Shown: in pieces, positions 14,483 to 28,549 of the stretch
How the letters are laid out: every line of letters begins with the position of its first letter
How positions within the stretch are numbered: position 1 is the stretch's first letter
From: a virus
Reading direction: 5' to 3' (one strand)
Virus record (IMG/VR): IMGVR_UViG_3300031565_000259
Location: 1-28,846 of that record
DNA: 28,846 nucleotides
The notes under the pieces: model-generated
Told to the model about the DNA's origin: nothing
Databases searched by the model: none
What the model saw: the letters and a program-made list of their open reading frames with translations, nothing else
Translations under genes and position numbers: made by a program

Positions 14483-16438
14483 ATGTCTAAATTATGGGTT
14501 GACTTTGAAACGCGTAGCCGTTGCGACCTTCGCAGCCGCGGCGTGTACAATTACGCGCAGGACGCCAGCACTGACGTTCTGTGTATGTCATACGCATTTG
14601 ATGACGAAGACGTGCGGACGTGGCTCCCCGGTGAGCCTTTCCCGCAAGCCGTCAAAGACCACAAAGGGCTGGTGTACGCGCACAACGCCGCGTTTGAGCG
14701 CCTGATATTCTGGTATGTCCTTCAGGTAAACTTCAAGCTGGAGCAGTTCTATTGCACCGCAGCGCAGGCCCGCGCCAACTGTGCGCCGGGCAGCCTTGAA
14801 GATGTGGGCCGGTTCGCTGGCGCGACCATGAAGAAAGACCACCGCGGCGGACAACTGATCCGCGCGCTGTCCATCCCGCAGTCAGACGGCACATTCCGCG
14901 AGGATGCCGCGCTGATGCAGGAGATGGTTGACTATTGCGAACAGGATGTGCGGGCCATGCGCGCCATCGCGCAGGCGCAGCGTCCGCTGTCGGCAGAAGA
15001 GTTGGCCGACTACCACACTAACGAGCGCATCAACGACCGCGGCGTCCTGCTTGACAGGCCGTTGGCGCTGGCGGCTGTGCGCTACGCTGAAACTGAATTG
15101 GCTGAGATACAAGACATCGTCGCAGAGGTGACGCAGGGCGAGATAACGTCCGTCCGCAGCCCCAAGATGCGTAAGTGGGTGCTGGACCGCGTAGGGCCGC
15201 AGGCGCTCGAACTGGCAACGCTTTACAAAGACGGCGAAGCCAAGCTATCCATTGACAAGAACGTGCGCGCTAACCTGCTCACGCTGGCGGAGGAGAACCC
15301 CGATGAAGTACCGGCAGAAGTTGCGGAAGTCATCCAGTGCGCAGACGATCTCTGGGCATCGTCCGTGGCAAAATTCCAGCGTGCCGCGGCGCTTGCTGAT
15401 GAGGAAGATTTTCGAGTTAGAGGAGCATTTGTATTTGCAGGAGGCAGTGCTACTGGCCGCGCTTCATCATTTGGGCTTCAGGTCCACAACTTCCCAAGAA
15501 AGTGTGCCGACGACCCTGCATTAGTACGGCAGGCTATGGTGCGCGGACACCAGATTGTCCCCGAATATGGTCGCCGCGTAACAGACGTCTTGAAAGGTAT
15601 GCTACGCCCTGCGCTGATGGCCGACAAAGGCAAGCGGCTGGTCGTCGCTGACTGGGCCGCCATCGAAGCGCGGGTGACGCCGTGGGCGTCCAACAGCATC
15701 TTTGGTGCGAACAAGCTGGACATCTTCGCCAAGGGTGAGGACGTTTACAAGCACAACGCTATGGCGACGTTCCATGTCGGCTATGACGATGTCGATAAAG
15801 ACCAGCGCCAGATCGGTAAGGTTCAAGAGTTGGCGTGTGGCTTTGCCGGCGGCGTAGGGGCCTTCGCCAGCATGGGTCGCATCTACGGCCTGATGATGTC
15901 TGAGAGCGACGCCAAGCGCATGGTGGACGCATGGCGCAGGGCTAACAAGTGGGCTGTGCCTTACTGGTCTGGCCTTGAGGAAACCTATATGCGCGCCATG
16001 CGGAACAAGGGCCGTGAGTTTACCATCGGGCGCGTCACATATTTATTTGATGGGCTGCATCTTTGGTATGCACTTCCGTCTGGCCGTGTGTTATGTTATC
16101 CTTTCGCCCGCTTTAACGAGGAAGGCGACCTGACCTATGCCAAGGCTTCATGGAAGCCAGCCGCAGATGCGAAAGAGTGGCCTAGGGCGCGGCTGTGGCG
16201 CGGTCTGGCGTGTGAGAACATCACGCAGGCTGTCGCTAACGACTTGCTGCGCGCCGCCTTACGTCGGTTGGATGACGTAGTGCTGCACATTCACGACGAA
16301 ATCGTCTTGGAAGTGCCAGCGGATGAAGCCGAAGCCGCCGCCGCGCGGCTGGTGCAGATTATGTGTGAGCCGCCACCTTGGGCAGCAGGGCTACCCCTGA
16401 ACGCTGAAGTGGCAATTATGGAACGATATGGCAAATAA
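14483..16438 (+). CDS. Family A DNA polymerase with 3'-5' exonuclease domain
   Basis: A 651-residue DNA polymerase I-type replicase of phages. The exonuclease motifs are intact: D-F-E-T (D7, E9), AHNAAFERLIF near residue 65, and DYCEQDVRAM near residue 150. Polymerase motif A is VADWAAIEARV near 387, motif B is the segment KDQRQIGKVQELACGFAGG near 437, and motif C is LHIHDEIVLEV near 602 with the catalytic H-D-E. I choose ATG 14483 (MSKLWVDFETRSR); the in-frame GTG at 14471 is too close to the GGAAGAG ribosome binding site, which is well placed for the ATG. It belongs to the rightward replication operon and would copy the phage genome with the following primase-helicase. All catalytic residues are present. 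Confidence 0.95.
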   Translation: MSKLWVDFETRSRCDLRSRGVYNYAQDASTDVLCMSYAFDDEDVRTWLPGEPFPQAVKDHKGLVYAHNAAFERLIFWYVLQVNFKLEQFYCTAAQARANCAPGSLEDVGRFAGATMKKDHRGGQLIRALSIPQSDGTFREDAALMQEMVDYCEQDVRAMRAIAQAQRPLSAEELADYHTNERINDRGVLLDRPLALAAVRYAETELAEIQDIVAEVTQGEITSVRSPKMRKWVLDRVGPQALELATLYKDGEAKLSIDKNVRANLLTLAEENPDEVPAEVAEVIQCADDLWASSVAKFQRAAALADEEDFRVRGAFVFAGGSATGRASSFGLQVHNFPRKCADDPALVRQAMVRGHQIVPEYGRRVTDVLKGMLRPALMADKGKRLVVADWAAIEARVTPWASNSIFGANKLDIFAKGEDVYKHNAMATFHVGYDDVDKDQRQIGKVQELACGFAGGVGAFASMGRIYGLMMSESDAKRMVDAWRRANKWAVPYWSGLEETYMRAMRNKGREFTIGRVTYLFDGLHLWYALPSGRVLCYPFARFNEEGDLTYAKASWKPAADAKEWPRARLWRGLACENITQAVANDLLRAALRRLDDVVLHIHDEIVLEVPADEAEAAAARLVQIMCEPPPWAAGLPLNAEVAIMERYGK

Positions 16439-16448
16439 GGAGCAAGCG

Positions 16449-18797
16449 ATGAGTGAGGATCGCACGAAATTCATAGAGTATATAACTGGCTTGGCGACAG
16501 ACAATGTCGGCGAGACAGCCCTTGTTGTGCGGCAGAAGCCGCAGCACGACAGCGACGGCAACATGATATTCCACGCAGACGGCGCGCCGAAGGCGACCTT
16601 CCCTGCGTTCCTGCCAGAAAAGACCCGCATGAAAGAAGGCGAGGCATGGTATGTCAACACAGGTTCGTTCATCGTTGACCGCTTTGTAGACGGCAAGCCG
16701 TCCGCCAAGTCGAGCAACGTCGAATATGTGCTGTTCATGATGCTGGATGACGTTGGCACGAAGTCAAAAGAGCCGCCACTTGACCCGACATGGATACTGG
16801 AAACCAGCGAAGGTTCGTTCCAATGGGGCTACGCGTTCAGCGAACAACCTAAGAAGGGCGACTTCTGCGCGGCCATCAAGGCCATCGCGGATGCAGGCTA
16901 CACTGACCCCGGCGCGACTAACGCCGTTCGCAACTGCCGTATCCCCGGCAGCGTCAACCTGAAGCAAGGGCGCAATAACTTTCCTGCGCGGCTGGTATCG
17001 TTCAACCCTGAGCGTGAATACACGCTGGACGAGATATGCAAGGCGCTGGACGTAACGCCAGAGGAAGGCGACACAGCCGAATATAAAGCCGTGCAGTTGC
17101 GCGACAATGGGCTGGACAACGTCCTGACATGGCTTGCTGAAAACAACCTAGTCCTGAGCGCGCCTAACGCTGACGGCTGGTGCGCCATCGTCTGCCCTAA
17201 CCATCAGGAACACAGCGACGGCATGATTGAGGCGCGCTACAAGCCGCTGGATCGTTCGTTCTGCTGCTATCATGGGCACTGCCAAAACTTAGACAGCCGC
17301 ACGTTCCTTGATTGGGTAGCCAATGAAGGTGGCCCGAAGGTAACGCCGGGCTTGCGTGATGAACTAATCGCTGAACGTCTGGCGTCGATGTATGACAAGA
17401 TAGCGCCGAACGAGGCGTTTCCTGATGAGGCCGCAGCGCGTGTGCGTGAGGTCGAAAAGAAAGAAGCAGGACGGCTGGAACAAAGCGAATGGTTCGAGCG
17501 TTTCGCCTATATCCAGTCCGACGATTGCTATTTCGACATGGTGACGCGTCAAGAGATAGGGCGTAACGTCTTTAACGCCCTGTTCCGTCACGTTGACTGC
17601 AAATCCCTGCATGGCAAGAAGCCCCGCATTTCGGCGTCTTATTATTTTGACGAGCGCCGGCAGGATCGCGGCGCACCTGCGTTGTCGGCGGTGACGTTCG
17701 CCGCTGGCGATGACGTGTTGGTGACGCGCGACGGGTTGGTTTACGGCAACCGCTGGACAAACGCCCGCCCTGACGTGTCCAGTAGCGATGACATCGCCGA
17801 CCATGACGTTGAACCTTGGCTGGAGCATTGCCGCAATCTGGTGTCGGACGACGCAGAGTTAGACCACATCCTTGACGCTATGGCGTTTAAGATACAGCAC
17901 CCGAACGTCAAGATTAACCATGCCATCCTGATTGGCGGTGATGAAGGCGCGGGCAAGGACAGTATGTTCCAGCCGTTTCTGTGGGCGCTCGGCGGTAAGC
18001 ATTGGCGCAATCGGTCAGTCATTGAGGCTGGCGGCTTGGACAGCCAGTGGGGCTATGCGCTTGAGGCTGAAGTTGTCATCCTGAACGAACTAAAGGAGCC
18101 AGAGGCGCGTGAACGGCGCGCTATGGCTAACAAGCTGAAGCCGCTCATCGCTGCGCCGCCTGAAACGCTGTCGGTCAATCGCAAGGGGATGCACCCTTAT
18201 GAGTTGGTCAACCGCCTGATGGTGGTGGCTTACACGAACGATCCACTGCCTATCACGCTGCCGACACAGGACCGCCGCTGGTTCTGCGTCTGGACGCGCG
18301 CGCCGCGTATGACAACGGCGGCGGCTAAGGCGCTGTGGGGCTGGTATGAGGCCGGCGGCTATGAGAAGTGCGCCGCTTGGCTGCATCAGCGCGACGTGTC
18401 GGCGTTCAACCCTGCCGCTGCGCCGCCAGTGACCGAATGGAAGCTGAACATGGTCGAGCATGGCATGAGCGTAGCGGAAAGCTATCTTGTGGACATGATG
18501 CGGCTTCGGTCGGGCGTGTTCTCTGATGGCGTCATCGGTGGGCCTTTCCATCGCATCTGTGACGCGCTGGCGGTTAACGTGCCAGCGGGCGTTAAAATCC
18601 CACAGGCTGCGCTGCTGCACGCGCTAAAGGAAGCGGGTTGGATCGACATTGGCCGCATCAACTCGAAAGAATATCAAAACAAGAAACACATCTTTGCCGC
18701 GCCAGAGGCGTTGGAAAAGCACAGCAAGTCAGAATTGCGCCGCATGGCTGAAGAATTGCCAAAGCCCAACACGATGTCAAACTTAGGCAAGATTTGA
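16449..18797 (+). CDS. Primase-helicase (AEP-like primase N-terminus, DUF5906/D5-like helicase C-terminus)
   Basis: A 782-residue multidomain protein. ATG 16449 is preferred over 16428 because AAGGAG lies seven bases before it; the stop of the polymerase gene falls between the two. Residues 1-200 carry a primase-polymerase-like domain with VLFMMLDDVGTK (near 95), LDPTWILETSEGSFQW and CRIPGSVNLK (near 165), as in RepB-like/archaeo-eukaryotic primases. A Cys/His-rich segment (WCAIVCPNHQEH and CCYHGHC, residues about 243-290) may bind zinc. The C-terminal helicase has Walker A GGDEGAGKD near 495, Walker B VVILNELKE near 541 and an Arg pair in TQDRRWFCVW near 606, matching the DUF5906 group of SF3-like helicases. 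It would unwind and prime the phage fork for the polymerase encoded upstream. Confidence 0.9.
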   Translation: MSEDRTKFIEYITGLATDNVGETALVVRQKPQHDSDGNMIFHADGAPKATFPAFLPEKTRMKEGEAWYVNTGSFIVDRFVDGKPSAKSSNVEYVLFMMLDDVGTKSKEPPLDPTWILETSEGSFQWGYAFSEQPKKGDFCAAIKAIADAGYTDPGATNAVRNCRIPGSVNLKQGRNNFPARLVSFNPEREYTLDEICKALDVTPEEGDTAEYKAVQLRDNGLDNVLTWLAENNLVLSAPNADGWCAIVCPNHQEHSDGMIEARYKPLDRSFCCYHGHCQNLDSRTFLDWVANEGGPKVTPGLRDELIAERLASMYDKIAPNEAFPDEAAARVREVEKKEAGRLEQSEWFERFAYIQSDDCYFDMVTRQEIGRNVFNALFRHVDCKSLHGKKPRISASYYFDERRQDRGAPALSAVTFAAGDDVLVTRDGLVYGNRWTNARPDVSSSDDIADHDVEPWLEHCRNLVSDDAELDHILDAMAFKIQHPNVKINHAILIGGDEGAGKDSMFQPFLWALGGKHWRNRSVIEAGGLDSQWGYALEAEVVILNELKEPEARERRAMANKLKPLIAAPPETLSVNRKGMHPYELVNRLMVVAYTNDPLPITLPTQDRRWFCVWTRAPRMTTAAAKALWGWYEAGGYEKCAAWLHQRDVSAFNPAAAPPVTEWKLNMVEHGMSVAESYLVDMMRLRSGVFSDGVIGGPFHRICDALAVNVPAGVKIPQAALLHALKEAGWIDIGRINSKEYQNKKHIFAAPEALEKHSKSELRRMAEELPKPNTMSNLGKI

Positions 18798-19303: not shown

Positions 19304-19483
19304 TCAGTTAAACCCTGCCGCAGACCTTTTTTTCAGTTTTCTATAGCGGCCTTCAACAGAGGCAATCGTAAGCCCCATTTGCTCCGCCATGTAGGCCGGT
19401 CTTAGGCCATGCGCGTAATAGCTTATCAACTCTGCATCCATTTCAGGTGTCCACACGCGCCTAGTCCGTCTTACTAATGGCAT
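19304..19483 (-). CDS. Small helix-turn-helix (Myb/GcrA-like) DNA-binding protein
   Basis: A 59-residue basic protein. It opens with an Arg-rich arm (MPLVRRTRRV), then W-T-P-E-M-D-A-E-L-I-S-Y-Y-A-H-G-L, a helix, a turn and a second helix (PAYMAEQMGLTIASVEGRYR) that ends in KLKKRSAAG. The opening W-T-P-E, an internal G-L and I-A-x-x-M-G-x-T-x-x-S-V-x-x-R-x-x-K-L is the pattern of Myb/SANT-like and GcrA-like DNA-binding domains. The start ATG overlaps the stop of the gene before it (TAATG at 19485-19481), so it is in the leftward operon. It is the only recognisable DNA-binding protein of that operon and is a candidate for the regulator of the repeated ACCCTC sites; this link is inference. Confidence 0.75.
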   Translation of the reverse strand: MPLVRRTRRVWTPEMDAELISYYAHGLRPAYMAEQMGLTIASVEGRYRKLKKRSAAGFN

Positions 19484-22442: not shown

Positions 22443-22610
22443 TCACTGATTGATTAGGCGATGCAATGCCGCAGCGCGCTTATATTCGGTCATTAGCTTG
22501 CGCTGGATAGCTTTCAGATTTGAAAGCTGGCCCTTGCTGGCAACTGGGCAATTAATCATGTTGTCAATCCGCATCATGTCGGAAACAATCGTGTGGGTGT
22601 TGCGTGGCAT
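22443..22610 (-). CDS. 55-residue basic protein, first gene of the leftward operon
   Basis: A small basic, helical protein (MPRNTHTIVSDMMRIDNMIN, then CPVASKGQLSNLKAIQRKLM and TEYKRAAALHRLINQ). The ATG at 22610 has AAAGGA about 9 bases upstream and follows a promoter whose start should lie near 22637, so the leader is only about 27 bases. It is below 60 codons and easily missed. As the first gene of a leftward early-type operon it would be among the first products made. No family is recognised; charge and helix content allow nucleic acid or protein binding. Confidence 0.7.
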   Translation of the reverse strand: MPRNTHTIVSDMMRIDNMINCPVASKGQLSNLKAIQRKLMTEYKRAAALHRLINQ

Positions 22611-22643: not shown

Positions 22644-22671
22644 ATTCTACATTTTAAGAGGGTAGTTACAA
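22644..22671 (-). promoter_or_regulatory. Main leftward promoter of the small-gene operon
   Basis: On the minus strand TTGTAA (22666-22671) and TAGAAT (22644-22649) are separated by 16 bases, the same spacing as the consensus promoter at 19211-19238. The spacer contains CTACCCTC next to the -35 box, as there. The predicted start near 22637 leaves room for the ribosome binding site of the gene at 22610. Confidence 0.68.
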
Positions 22672-22790
22672 GACACTATTTTACCCTCTCATGTCGATTT
22701 CTGGATTTGCAGCAAATTGTGTTGCATTTCTGCACTACCCTCTAAAACCGATTTTAAGCCTCATATAGCGCGATTTGAGTTTGAGGGTAG
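22657..22790. repeat. Cluster of four GAGGGTA / TACCCTC motifs
   Basis: AGAGGGTAGT (22657-22666), TTACCCTCT (22681-22689), ACTACCCTCT (22734-22743) and GAGGGTAG (22783-22790) lie within 134 bases in both orientations; the first and third are exact inverted copies over ten bases. The fourth extends to AGTTTGAGGGTA (22778-22789), identical over 12 bases to 19221-19232 in the other leftward promoter. They look like binding sites of one regulator. Confidence 0.6.
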
Positions 22791-22871
22791 GTTAGTATGG
22801 AAAAGGGTCGAGTCTTAAAAGGTTCTGGTTCTGTTCCGTATCTGTTCCAATAGTCATGCGATCGGGTGAAA

Positions 22872-23031
22872 TGACGTCCAAATGGCGTTCGATTTGGTGG
22901 CTGGCAGATATCCTGTAAAATGTTTGGATTTTAGGGACGTCAAAACAGTCGTGAGGGACGTCATGAAAAGCGGTGCAAATGACGTCCCGAAAAATGGCTT
23001 GATTGCGCGGATTAATGGCAAAGGGACGTCA
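22872..23031. repeat. Five copies of a GGGACGTCA motif (candidate iterons or operators)
   Basis: The nine-base word GGGACGTCA or its complement occurs at 22934-22942, 22955-22963, 22980-22988 (inverted) and 23023-23031, with an eight-of-nine copy at 22872-22880 (inverted). The core GACGTC is palindromic. Centres are 63, 21, 24 and 44 bases apart; the first two gaps are whole helical turns. The stretch has no credible gene. Confidence 0.8.
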
Positions 23032-23036
23032 TATTG

Positions 23037-23100
23037 TTATGAAATAGATATATAGGTGATGTTTGAAAATTAGATGTATATTTATAACCTATATGGTTTG
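23037..23100. other. AT-rich segment with inverted repeat, possible unwinding element
   Basis: This 64-base segment is strongly A/T-rich compared with the window. ATATAGGT (23050-23057) and ACCTATAT (23087-23094) are exact inverted copies. It lies right after the GGGACGTCA cluster and before the second repeat block, the usual arrangement of protein sites and an easily melted region at an origin. Confidence 0.45.
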
Positions 23101-23131
23101 CTACGCTGGCAGGCCAGTTGAAAACCGATGA

Positions 23132-23322
23132 CAACTTGACAATTTGACTTGATGCATAAATGTCACACTTCCCCATCAATCGCGCATGACGTTAACGTAA
23201 AGCGTCATGGTCGCGCAGTCATGACCCGCGCAGTCATGGCAACTTGACAACCCGCCCATGCATAAATGTTGCACCGCAGCATAGCCAGCCAGCCGATGTG
23301 TTTTTCTTGACGTTAACGTAAA
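23132..23322. repeat. Second block of short direct and inverted repeats
   Basis: Several sets overlap. CAACTTGACAA (23132-23142 and 23240-23250) is each time followed by ATGCATAAATGT (23152-23163 and 23258-23269). CGCGCAGTCATG repeats at 23212-23223 and 23227-23238. The 15-base TGACGTTAACGTAAA repeats at 23187-23201 and 23308-23322 and contains the palindrome ACGTTAACGT. CATGACG (23185-23191) and CGTCATG (23203-23209) form an inverted pair. No gene is supported here. Confidence 0.75.
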
Positions 23323-23481: not shown

Positions 23482-23994
23482 ATGGTACGCCCAATGACTT
23501 TCTACTCACTGCCATTCACACCAGAACGGACGCAAGCCACAGAGGCGCGGCTAGAGGCAATCTATGAAGCTGCCCGCTACGGCCTCAAGGGTGACAGTTT
23601 GGCGATGGCTGCTGGATTGACGCCGCGCCAATTCCGCGTGCTGGCCGACGCTGACCCGCTGGTGGAGATGGCTGAGATCAAAGGTCGCGCTGACGGCGAA
23701 TACACAGCGGCTAAAACGATGTATGACGCAGCGCGCGATGGCGACAGCAAGGCTGCGCTGGAAATACTCAAGCATCAGCACGGCTGGGTAGCCAAGCAAC
23801 AGATCGACGTGAACATCGACCAGCAGATCAGCATTACAGGCGCGCTCGAAAAGGCACAGCAGCGCGTCATCGAAGGGACGTATCTTGAGATACCCCAGCT
23901 AGAGGATAACACACCAAATGCAGCAGCCGATTTACAGCGCATCGGAAGAGATGGAATTGATGTCGCGGCTATGGTCGCCGGCAATCAAGGATGA
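23482..23994 (+). CDS. terS: Terminase small subunit
   Basis: A 170-residue protein if ATG 23482 is used; ATG 23494 is possible, and neither has a clear ribosome binding site. The N-terminal part holds a helix-turn-helix-like unit (YEAARYGLKGDSLAMAAGLT then PRQFRVLADADP), the middle is a helical oligomerisation region (EYTAAKTMYDAARDGDSKAA then LEILKHQHGW), and the C-terminus has the segment IDVNIDQQISITGALEKAQQ that is usual in terminase small subunits. The protein would bind the packaging site as a ring and activate the large subunit. It precedes the large subunit gene with a 77-base overlap. A longer frame starting at 23407 uses a non-ATG codon inside the G-rich stretch and is not supported. 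Confidence 0.85.
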   Translation: MVRPMTFYSLPFTPERTQATEARLEAIYEAARYGLKGDSLAMAAGLTPRQFRVLADADPLVEMAEIKGRADGEYTAAKTMYDAARDGDSKAALEILKHQHGWVAKQQIDVNIDQQISITGALEKAQQRVIEGTYLEIPQLEDNTPNAAADLQRIGRDGIDVAAMVAGNQG

Positions 23995-25444
23995 CCCACT
24001 AGCTTTTGTATTACTGACATTCCCGTGGGGCGAAAAGGGTACGCCGCTAGAGCATTTCCAAGGCCCGCGTAAATGGCAACGCGAAGTGTTGGGCACGCTA
24101 CGCGACCACATCAAGCAGAACAACGGCAAGCTAGACTATGACACCATGCGGCTGGCGATTGCGTCAGGCCGCGGGATTGGCAAGTCAGCCTTAGTAAGCT
24201 GGCTGACGATATGGATGCTGTCTACGCGCATCGGCAGCACGACCATCGTGTCGGCAAACTCCGAAGCGCAGCTCAGAAGCGTAACATGGGCCGAAATTAC
24301 CAAGTGGCTGGCGATGTCGCTTAACAGCCATTGGTTCGAGATAGCCGCCACACGCATCATGCCAGCCAAGTGGCTGACCGAACTGGTCGAGCGCGACCTC
24401 AAAAAAGGCACGCGCTACTGGTCAGTCGAAGGGCGGCTGTGGTCCGAAGAGAACCCTGACGCATACGCAGGGGTCCACAACTTCGACGGTGTGCTGCTGA
24501 TCTTCGACGAAGCCAGCGGTATTCCAGATAGCATCTGGTCGGTTAGTGACGGTTTCTTCACGGAGAATACGCCGCACCGCTTTCATGTCGCCTTTTCCAA
24601 CCCGCGGCGGAACACTGGCTATTTCTACGAGACATTCCACAGCAAGCGGGCGTTCTGGCAGACGCGCAACATCGACGCGCGTGATGTCGAGGGTACAGAC
24701 AAAAACCTGTATCAGCGCATCATCGACGAATATGGGGCTGACAGCTACCAAGCGCACGTCGAAGTCTTCGGTAAGTTCCCGTCAGAAGGTGACGATCAGT
24801 TCATCGGCGTCAATCTGGTGGACGACGCAATGGCACGGCCCAAGTATAAGGACGAAACGGCGCCCATCGCCATCGGTGTTGACCCTGCGCGGTTTGGCGC
24901 TGACGCCACCGTCATCGCTGTGCGGCAGGGCCGCGACATCATCGCCATCAAGCGGCTGAAAGGCGCTGACACTATGGAAGTGGTAGGCCATGTCATCGAC
25001 GCTATCGAAGAGTATAAGCCTGCGCTGGTCGTCATCGACGAAGGCGGGCTGGGCGCAGGCATCGTAGACCGGCTGAAAGAGCAGCGGTACAAGATACGCG
25101 GCGTGAACTTCGGCAATAAGGCCATGAAGCAGATGATGTACGGAAACAAGCGTGCTGAAATGTGGGGCGCCATGCGTGACTGGCTGAAAACGGCGCACAT
25201 ACCCAACGACAGGTTCCTGAAAACTGACCTGATAAGCCCTAAGATAAAGCCCGACAGCAAGGGGACCATCTTCCTCGAAAGCAAGAAGGACATGAAGTCG
25301 CGCGGACTGGCCTCGCCAGACGCTGCGGACGCCATTGCAGTGACTTTTGCATTTCCTATCGCACACCGCGAAGCACGCGTTGACAAGCGACGCATGAGCA
25401 GTTATTCTCCACAAGGAATTTCTACAAGCTGGATGGGTTCGTAA
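23918..25444 (+). CDS. terL: Terminase large subunit
   Basis: A 508-residue packaging motor with ATPase and nuclease parts. The ATPase has Walker A GRGIGKS near residue 84 and Walker B LLIFDEAS near 195 with the catalytic Glu. The RNase H-like nuclease has its acidic residues in VDPARFGADATV (near 321), VVIDEGGLGAG (near 371) and SPDAADAIAV (near 466). The family-specific N-terminus RLWSPAIKDDPLAFVLLTFP then WGEKGTPLEHFQGPRKWQRE is intact. ATG 23918 is chosen because GAGGATAA lies about 9 bases upstream and the segment up to residue 20 fits the family; a start at 23951 is possible. It pumps DNA through the portal and cuts it, probably by a headful mechanism as in other P22-like phages, though the cutting mode cannot be read from the sequence. 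Confidence 0.95.
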   Translation: MQQPIYSASEEMELMSRLWSPAIKDDPLAFVLLTFPWGEKGTPLEHFQGPRKWQREVLGTLRDHIKQNNGKLDYDTMRLAIASGRGIGKSALVSWLTIWMLSTRIGSTTIVSANSEAQLRSVTWAEITKWLAMSLNSHWFEIAATRIMPAKWLTELVERDLKKGTRYWSVEGRLWSEENPDAYAGVHNFDGVLLIFDEASGIPDSIWSVSDGFFTENTPHRFHVAFSNPRRNTGYFYETFHSKRAFWQTRNIDARDVEGTDKNLYQRIIDEYGADSYQAHVEVFGKFPSEGDDQFIGVNLVDDAMARPKYKDETAPIAIGVDPARFGADATVIAVRQGRDIIAIKRLKGADTMEVVGHVIDAIEEYKPALVVIDEGGLGAGIVDRLKEQRYKIRGVNFGNKAMKQMMYGNKRAEMWGAMRDWLKTAHIPNDRFLKTDLISPKIKPDSKGTIFLESKKDMKSRGLASPDAADAIAVTFAFPIAHREARVDKRRMSSYSPQGISTSWMGS

Positions 25445-26266: not shown

Positions 26267-28549
26267 ATGGCCGACCCCACAGGCATCAACACCGCAGGCA
26301 AAGTCGCCAACGTAGGCTCTAACCCGCCTAAAACGTCTGGCGACGACCATGACAAGATGGCAACCATGCGGTCGCGCCTGCAAATGGCGCAGGCTGCGTA
26401 CTCGGACAGCCGTGAAGACGAACTGGACGACCTTCGGTTCATGGCTGGTAGCCCTGACAACCAGTGGCAATGGCCTGCTGACGTGTTGGCGACCCGCGGA
26501 AGTGTCCAAGGGCAGACAATTAACGCACGTCCATGCCTGACGATCAACAAATTGCCGCAGCACGTCCGCCAAGTCACTAACGAACAGCGTCAAAACCGAC
26601 CTAGCGGCAAGGTCATCCCCGCCGATGACAATGCGGACGTGCAAGTTGCAGAGATTTTCAACGGCGTCATGCGCCACATCGAGTATATGTCGGACGCTGA
26701 CGTTGCGTATGACACCGCCTGCGACAACCAAGTCACTTACGGCGAAGGCTATATCCGCCTGCTGACTGAGTATTGCAACGAAGACAGCTTCGACCAAGAC
26801 ATCCGCATCGTGCGTGTGCGTAACTCGTTCAGCGTTTACATGGACCCCACAATCCAAGACCCATGCGGATCAGACGCTGAGTATTGCTTCGTAACCGAAG
26901 ACATCCTCAAGTCTGACTATGAGCGTATGTTCCCAGACGCTGCGCCTATCTCGACCATCATGTCGCAAGGCGTCGGCAACGAAAGCATGGCGCAGTGGCT
27001 GGCTGAAGACACCATACGCATCGCAGAATACTTTTACAGGACGTATGAAAAGGCTACGCTGCACCTGTATCCTGACAATCAGACTGCATTTAGCGGTACG
27101 CCGCAGGACGCAGAACTGAAGGCCATGTTTGGTAAGCCTATCCGCTCACGCGAAGTAGACCGCGAAAAAATTATGTGGATGAAAACCAACGGGTTTGACA
27201 TCCTCGACGAACGCGAATGGCCGGGCAAGTTTATTCCTGTCGTGCGCGTTGTTGGTAACGAATGGGAAGTCGAAGGCAAGCTGTACATCAGCGGGCTTGT
27301 GCGTAACGCCAAGGACGCCCAGCGTATGTATAACTACTGGACCAGCCAAGAAGCAGAAATGCTGGCGCTGGCGCCAAAAGCACCATTTATTGCGTATGGC
27401 GGCCAATTTGAAGGCTACGAACAGCAGTGGAAGACTGCCAACACAACCAACTGGCCGTATTTGGAAGTCAACCCAGACGTTACAGACGGCGCTGGGAACG
27501 TATTGCCGCTTCCGCAGCGTGCAGCACCCCCGCTACCGCAAACAGGGCTGATACAGGCTAAAATGGGCGCTGGCGAGGACATCAAGTCCACCACCGGCCA
27601 GTACGACGCATCTTTGGGCCAACAAGGCAACGAACGGTCTGCAAAAGCCATCATTGCACGCGAAAAGCAGGGCGATGTTGGCACGTACCACTATGTTGAC
27701 AACCTAGCCCGTGCGATCCGTCACATTACCCGCCAGCTTGTCGATATTATCCCCAAGATTTACGACACGCAGCGCATTGCACGCATCATTGGCGTTGATG
27801 GCGAAGTCAGCATGGTCAAAATGGACCCTATGCAGCCAGAGCCTGTTAAGGAAATCCGCGACCAAAACGGCGGTATAATAGAGAAAATCTACAACCCGTC
27901 AATCGGCACATACGACGTTATGGTCACTACTGGCCCCGGCTACATGACCAAGCGTCAAGAGGCGCTTGACGCCATGTCAACGATCCTGCAATCCAACCCG
28001 CAGCTTTGGACTGTGGCTGGCGATCTGTTCATTAAGAACATGGATTGGCCCGGAGCGCAGGAAATGGCCGCACGGTTCAAGAAAATCCTTGACCCTAAAG
28101 TCTTGGAAGAAGGCGATCAATCGCCAGAAGTCATGGCTGCCAAGCAACAGATTGAAGCCCTGTCGCAAGAACTTAACCGCGTGTCTGACATCATGGAGAA
28201 TATCCAAGACAGTGCAGAACAGCAGAAGATTGCCATCGACAAGTACAAGGCTGAAGTGCAGGCTTACGAAGCTGAAACCAAGCGCATCTCTGCGGTACAG
28301 AACAGCATGACACCTGAGCAAATTCAAGATATTGTCATGGGTACGATTGCAGGCGCTCTGGATACAGGCGACTTGATCGGCGGTTCACCTGAAATGCGCG
28401 AAGTACCGCAGATGGACGAACAGATGCAGCAAGCCCCAGAAATGGGGGAGCAGCCTGAGATGCCTATGGAAATGCCTATGGAAATGCCTATGGAAATGCC
28501 TATGGAAATGCCTGAAATGCCAGAACAAGCCCCTGAAGGAATGATGTAA
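26267..28549 (+). CDS. P22-type portal protein
   Basis: A 760-residue portal close in length to P22 gp1 (725 residues). The N-terminal part DDLRFMAGSPDNQWQWPADV then INARPCLTINKLPQHVRQVT and N-E-Q-R-Q-N-R-P is diagnostic of this family, as are CDNQVTYGEGYIRLLTEY and VRVRNSFSVYMDPTIQDPCG. Residues about 615-700 form a long helix (MAAKQQIEALSQELNRVSDI, then KAEVQAYEAETKRISAVQNS), likely the start of the C-terminal barrel typical of P22. The last 30 residues are Met/Pro/Glu repeats. Twelve copies form the ring at the head vertex through which DNA is packaged and ejected; it binds the gp4-like adaptor encoded at 278. The stop overlaps the next start (TAATG). Confidence 0.93.
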   Translation: MADPTGINTAGKVANVGSNPPKTSGDDHDKMATMRSRLQMAQAAYSDSREDELDDLRFMAGSPDNQWQWPADVLATRGSVQGQTINARPCLTINKLPQHVRQVTNEQRQNRPSGKVIPADDNADVQVAEIFNGVMRHIEYMSDADVAYDTACDNQVTYGEGYIRLLTEYCNEDSFDQDIRIVRVRNSFSVYMDPTIQDPCGSDAEYCFVTEDILKSDYERMFPDAAPISTIMSQGVGNESMAQWLAEDTIRIAEYFYRTYEKATLHLYPDNQTAFSGTPQDAELKAMFGKPIRSREVDREKIMWMKTNGFDILDEREWPGKFIPVVRVVGNEWEVEGKLYISGLVRNAKDAQRMYNYWTSQEAEMLALAPKAPFIAYGGQFEGYEQQWKTANTTNWPYLEVNPDVTDGAGNVLPLPQRAAPPLPQTGLIQAKMGAGEDIKSTTGQYDASLGQQGNERSAKAIIAREKQGDVGTYHYVDNLARAIRHITRQLVDIIPKIYDTQRIARIIGVDGEVSMVKMDPMQPEPVKEIRDQNGGIIEKIYNPSIGTYDVMVTTGPGYMTKRQEALDAMSTILQSNPQLWTVAGDLFIKNMDWPGAQEMAARFKKILDPKVLEEGDQSPEVMAAKQQIEALSQELNRVSDIMENIQDSAEQQKIAIDKYKAEVQAYEAETKRISAVQNSMTPEQIQDIVMGTIAGALDTGDLIGGSPEMREVPQMDEQMQQAPEMGEQPEMPMEMPMEMPMEMPMEMPEMPEQAPEGMM
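28460..28507 (+). repeat. Tandem 12-base repeat in the portal gene, four perfect copies
   Basis: ATGCCTATGGAA is repeated four times without change and codes for Met-Pro-Met-Glu units at the portal C-terminus; degenerate units follow. Perfect identity, including third codon positions, points to recent expansion by slippage. Confidence 0.92.

Follow-up and report, generated by a model that had tools for sequence, protein, structure and literature searches.

A repeated word beside the terminase genes of a podovirus group, very probably the iteron array of a replication origin

The gap between the early genes and the terminase genes

The DNA analysed here (the window) is the whole 28,846-base stretch of a virus record, which is related to, among others, phage DSL-LC05 and the complete podovirus genome MW202483. 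A gap of approximately 870 bp, flanked by leftward early genes and rightward terminase genes, holds an array of a repeated word. The features of the gap and its borders are as follows, with iteron used for the proposed role of the repeats.

22443-22610, minus strand: last leftward early open reading frame (ORF), start codon at 22610
22658-22789: GAGGGTA, four copies, on the upstream side of the leftward early genes (22658 plus, 22682 minus, 22736 minus, 22783 plus)
22871-22880, plus strand: iteron 1, ATGACGTCCA, one mismatch to ATGACGTCCC; contains the 9-mer TGGACGTCA at 22872-22880 (minus), one mismatch to GGGACGTCA
22934-22943, minus strand: iteron 2, TTGACGTCCC, one mismatch to ATGACGTCCC; exact GGGACGTCA at 22934-22942 (plus)
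22955-22964, minus strand: iteron 3, ATGACGTCCC; exact GGGACGTCA at 22955-22963 (plus)
22979-22988, plus strand: iteron 4, ATGACGTCCC; exact GGGACGTCA at 22980-22988 (minus)
23023-23032, minus strand: iteron 5, ATGACGTCCC; exact GGGACGTCA at 23023-23031 (plus)
23021-23100, no strand: AT-rich segment between both iteron sets, with the near-palindrome AACCTATATGGTT at 23086-23098
23128-23142, plus strand: right-hand iteron pair of a second word, ATGACAACTTGACAA
23188-23201 and 23309-23322, plus strand: two copies of GACGTTAACGTAAA, also present in relatives of other word classes
23236-23250, plus strand: right-hand iteron pair ATGGCAACTTGACAA, which has one mismatch to ATGACAACTTGACAA and follows the first at a distance of 108 bp
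23482-23994, plus strand: small terminase subunit, the first gene right of the array, identified by position and relatives
23918-25444: ORF of the large terminase subunit

A recount confirmed the four exact copies and one eight-of-nine copy of GGGACGTCA that the first-pass annotation had reported at 22872-23031, and no exact copy beyond these four was found in the 28,846 bases. Its view that the repeat is not due to chance also holds, as any 9-mer reached four copies in only 3 of 2000 dinucleotide shuffles of the gap. Only this gap-based test was used, because the cluster test on the whole shuffled window is confounded by simple repeats. The GACGTC cores are spaced by 63, 21, 24 and 44 bp, and the first two spacings only, those for which a common helical face had been proposed, correspond to whole helical turns. 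The region is indeed gene-free, with the leftward block ending at 22610 and the small terminase starting at approximately 23482. The reported AT-rich stretch and its inverted repeat were likewise confirmed (73% AT at 23021-23080; arms at 23050-23060 and 23084-23094). The segment at 23021-23100 is a probable melting site, and its near-palindrome is also found in relatives of several word classes. The earlier annotation did not include ATGACAACTTGACAA, a further word located in the right half of this gap and the main word of the TGACAAC class of relatives.

Searches of the gap for RNA families, tRNAs, terminators and sigma-70 promoters gave nothing above chance, and GC skew does not reverse clearly at the array, which makes it uninformative as a marker of the origin. 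The earlier statement that no described phage origin carries this word agrees with a blastn search of the gap, which returned no match among 50,697 phage records. Because CCCTCT motifs similar to the GAGGGTA copies occur in relatives of other word classes, these copies appear to be a separate control element, which suggests a conserved operator for the early promoter. Elsewhere in the window, a 760-residue ORF, probably the portal protein, carries tandem PMEM repeats at its C-terminus (28400-28540).

Different words at the same place in relatives

Fetching 80 loci per terminase subunit query allowed us to compare this gap across relatives, which are mostly metagenomic contigs; all evidence presented here is comparative. 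The GACGTC array is present in about a fifth of the relatives compared, and many do not have it, including phages whose small terminase is 93-97% identical. Word counts made without any preset word revealed others in the same gap, among them TGACCCAG, TAGCCTA, TGACAAC, TGACCCAA, TTGTCCACA, TGACTA, TGACCTAG and TGACCCAC. Absence of the repeats from related phages had been named in the first-pass annotation as evidence against their being functional sites. Many relatives do lack GGGACGTCA, yet they carry another word at the same place, so that this test is misleading and its outcome is not a refutation.

Array spacing is often alike between word classes. Counted from the terminase start, sites lie at -667, -645, -634, -623, -570, -549, -526, -481, -375 and -272 in a TGACGTC locus (L136), and at -669, -647, -637, -626, -567, -555, -520, -379 and -273 in a TGACCCAG locus (L155). 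The AT-rich maximum has sites to its left and right in 78 of 83 distinct loci of four classes, and at the array the class word reaches 13-262 times its density elsewhere in the loci.

An exact DnaA box, TTATCCACA, is present in 26 of 66 related gaps (for example L087, L043, L090 and L113), where approximately one is expected from shuffles. Since the window has no DnaA box, host DnaA may help some members only. A host search against GTDB genomes gave a single match, to an uncultured bin. Two relatives carry nuclease frames between origin and terminase, namely an HNH-type reading frame (judged by eye) approximately 500 bases upstream of the small terminase in L143, and an annotated homing endonuclease at 10712-11158 in L162. 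These might be origin-targeting nucleases like ICP1 Odn.

Covariation of the word with the primase-helicase C-terminus

A word that changes throughout the array needs a partner that changes with it, and proteins were therefore scored for association. Every alignment column was compared with word class and corrected by label shuffles (corrected MI/H) for those proteins that could be aligned, namely seven large proteins and twenty early-region ORF families. The association peaks at residue 745 of the primase-helicase (0.72, z 26), with further values of 0.48 at residue 747, 0.36 at 750 and 0.35 at 751. The protein and its relevant parts are placed as follows.

16428-18797, plus strand: primase-helicase, the proposed initiator, with a RepB'-type primase region, a DUF5906 SF3-type helicase and a C-terminal winged-helix-like domain
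18465-18752, plus strand: C-terminal winged-helix-like domain, approximately residues 680-775, from AlphaFold2 secondary structure
18660-18683, plus strand: wing, residues 745-752 (NSKEYQNK), the central part of the stretch covarying with the word

In Pfam, PF19263 (DUF5906) scores above the cut-off, PF16793 (RepB_primase) just below and PF05272 below, and the PHROG assignment is DNA primase. Foldseek with the whole chain matches NrS-1 primase-polymerase (6k9c, the best match, E 5e-13), D5/E5, SaPI PriRep1 and RepB'. The AlphaFold2 model has a mean pLDDT of 74 and a pTM of 0.38 for the whole protein, and a pTM of 0.68 for the last 130 residues. Its C-terminal elements are ordered helix, strand, helix, helix, strand, wing, strand, with residues 745-752 forming the wing and a nearly invariant helix (726-735) just before it. 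The C-terminal domain has no sequence match to solved structures in the PDB and, taken in isolation, gives weak winged-helix matches only in Foldseek (best E 0.05), so a winged-helix fold is probable from the model but unproven.

Residue 745 is N in all 15 loci of the GTC class and all 7 of the CAA class, G in 35 of 36 TAGCCTA loci, and H or A with TGACCCAG. The window protein has N745 and K747, and its gap carries both words of the N-K combination, TGACGTC on the left and TGACAAC on the right. Residue 747 may tentatively be placed in contact with the end of the word, with K accompanying a final C and V a final G. For pairs of primase-helicases at least 95% identical over residues 1-680, residue 745 agreed in 120/120 pairs with the same word and differed in 112/113 pairs with different words. 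A tree built from residues 300-680 requires at least 16 changes of word class and at least 16 of residue 745; where independent pairs lie on supported branches, they agree (4/4 and 3/3), but such pairs are too few for a significant sign test alone. The signal is confined to codons 741-765 and drops off over roughly ten codons; almost all synonymous sites score at or below 0.16 (codon 743, at 0.29, is the exception), so simple linkage is insufficient to account for it.

The rule linking residue to word extends to a second clade, approximately 55-60% identical, for which scans with two distant primase-helicases brought the collection to 266 loci, 167 of them distinct. In the first clade A745 goes with TGACCCAG; in the second it goes with TGACCCAA or TGACCCAT, and TGACCCA(A/T) is found in 40 of 43 A-G, A-S and A-A loci. 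Second-clade proteins with K745-R747 have TTGTCCA(CA) (38 loci) or TGACCCAC/TGACTCAC (9 loci), in 47/47 cases, and those with M745-R747 have TGACTA (8/8). At L033, G745 is found with TAGCCTA, while MW202483 and two relatives combine unrelated wing residues with the word ATGTAAAC. There are exceptions. Primase-helicases with a RIACVD wing have mixed AAGTTAGGC/TGACCCAG arrays (L205, L091, L218, L206) and are possibly intermediates in a specificity switch; G745-K747 proteins occur with TGACCTAC or TAGCCTAC; and in 7 of 167 loci no word reaches three copies.

Other candidate readers were rejected. The terminases, polymerase, nuclease and helicase show no association with word class (maxima of 0.07 for the small terminase, 0.09 for the large terminase and 0.15 for PolA). 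Early-operon families reach maxima of 0.06-0.33 in small samples without a clear split by class, the highest value coming from spurious ORFs antisense to the 3' end of the primase-helicase gene. The 59-residue helix-turn-helix protein at 19304-19483, proposed earlier as a possible binder, is present in 21 of 82 relatives and has no clear association with the word. Another helix-turn-helix-like protein, of approximately 133 residues, is present in 66 of 82 relatives and absent from the window.

A proposed origin, its alternatives and known replicons

Judged from the sequence comparisons, the repeated word is very probably the iteron array of the phage replication origin. We put a probability of about 0.88 on the array being the left half of this origin, with iterons bound by the C-terminal domain of the primase-helicase and the two evolving together as a matched pair. 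Each phage thus appears to recognise a version of the origin that is specific to it. Of the two readings offered by the first-pass annotation, the one with good support is origin iterons, given that the C-terminus of the primase-helicase changes with the word; the repressor operator array lacks such support. In the proposed mechanism, the winged-helix-like domain would bind iterons on both sides of the AT-rich segment; the protein would melt this segment, assemble as an SF3-type helicase ring and prime synthesis, so that replication would start at the gap. A few changes in the wing (residues 745, 747, 750 and 751) would go together with a new word across the whole array.

There are other possible explanations for an array in this position. 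Operators of an early regulator or phage repressor would sit naturally between divergent gene blocks, at divergent early and late promoters, with word classes as immunity groups, and the Myb/D5-like helix-turn-helix protein at 19304-19483 could be their reader. We consider this very unlikely, as that protein family is found in 21 of 82 loci only, the early-operon proteins do not follow the word, and the protein that does is a replication protein; the primase-helicase could, in addition, regulate transcription. A host factor as the binder, with different hosts accounting for the different words, is less probable again: the DnaA boxes in 26 of 66 related gaps indicate that the host initiator may also act there, but a host factor leaves unexplained why the word tracks 2-5 residues of one phage protein among near-identical phages.

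The start codon of the small terminase is 450-610 bp downstream of the array, as might be expected if the array consisted of packaging (pac/cos-type) sites for the adjacent small terminase, comparable to lambda cosB. This is scarcely credible given that the small terminase has no association with the word (0.07 at most) and that of the window is 97% identical to that of L087, whose word is wholly different. Hitch-hiking, in which the array and the 3' end of the primase-helicase gene are swapped jointly by recombination without a functional link, has a similarly slight chance of being correct. The two lie 4.1 kb apart on one genome and these phages are mosaic, but the intervening genes and the terminase beside the array show no association, and the narrow primase-helicase signal with nearly flat synonymous sites argues against it.

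By analogy, the proposed origin with its iterons and primase-helicase would work like the replicons of phage P4 alpha and of SaPI/PICI Rep. The C-terminal domain is what binds iterons in SaPI Rep and SCCmec Cch2 (PMC7581432), and origins of E. coli PICIs always have two iteron sets around an AT-rich region, which the authors did not find in any other known bacterial replicon (PMC6092414). Likewise, the proposed initiator is a D5/SF3-type helicase with an AEP primase, fused or alongside, and two sets of short iterons flank an AT-rich site, in the window five on the left and two pairs of the second word on the right. SaPI PriRep1 with dsDNA (7pds) is among the structural matches of the window protein. 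In SaPI/PICI, however, the origin lies immediately 3' of rep, whereas the primase-helicase gene of the window ends at 18797 and the array starts at 22871, 4.1 kb away by the terminase. SaPI/PICI are also satellites without their own capsid and large terminase, while the window phage carries a large terminase ORF; in MW202483, a complete relative, the annotation lists P22-like genes for portal and coat. The specificity residues can moreover be pinned to the wing by covariation, unlike in SaPI/PICI. With an origin 4.1 kb from the initiator gene and its own packaging genes, the system is therefore not filed as a SaPI/PICI replicon.

P4 alpha combines primase, helicase and a C-terminal winged helix that binds origin repeats in one protein (PMC4234260). 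The window protein likewise joins primase and helicase regions in one chain; its C-terminal domain has the element order of a winged helix in the AlphaFold2 model, with Foldseek matches no better than E 0.05. The P4 primase is of the TOPRIM type (PMC4234260), whereas the window protein has a RepB'-like AEP primase region. NrS-1 primase-polymerase is similar in its AEP primase, SF3-like helicase ring and tail domain, and differs in that origin iterons are not mentioned in the passages of PMC7102993 consulted.

In PLE satellites of Vibrio cholerae, the DNA-binding domain of RepA_N and the origin iterons covary and are exchanged as modules, only cognate initiator-origin pairs replicate in swaps, and an origin-directed phage nuclease selects for change (PMC8263062). 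As an initiator RepA_N is unrelated and contains neither helicase nor primase, and whole domains differ there, versus a few wing residues in the window family. By analogy with PLE, selection by nucleases is a possible reason for the word diversity, which is perhaps selected by co-infection, satellites or origin-cutting nucleases.

We give an even chance to a broader proposal, in which the wing, not the recognition helix, sets origin specificity, and 2-5 wing substitutions have repeatedly retargeted the family to at least eight words. Such a natural residue-to-base code would yield mutually exclusive replicons among otherwise nearly identical phages. For a large set of uncultured podoviruses, amounting to hundreds of contigs and with apparently undescribed replication, the analysis provides a probable origin and its probable reader. 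The iteron/AT-rich/iteron layout has been described as unique to satellite islands and would now extend to phages that encode packaging and structural proteins themselves. Natural variation serves as a fine-mapped association study that gives residue-to-word rules, and possibly as a set of orthogonal origin-initiator pairs.
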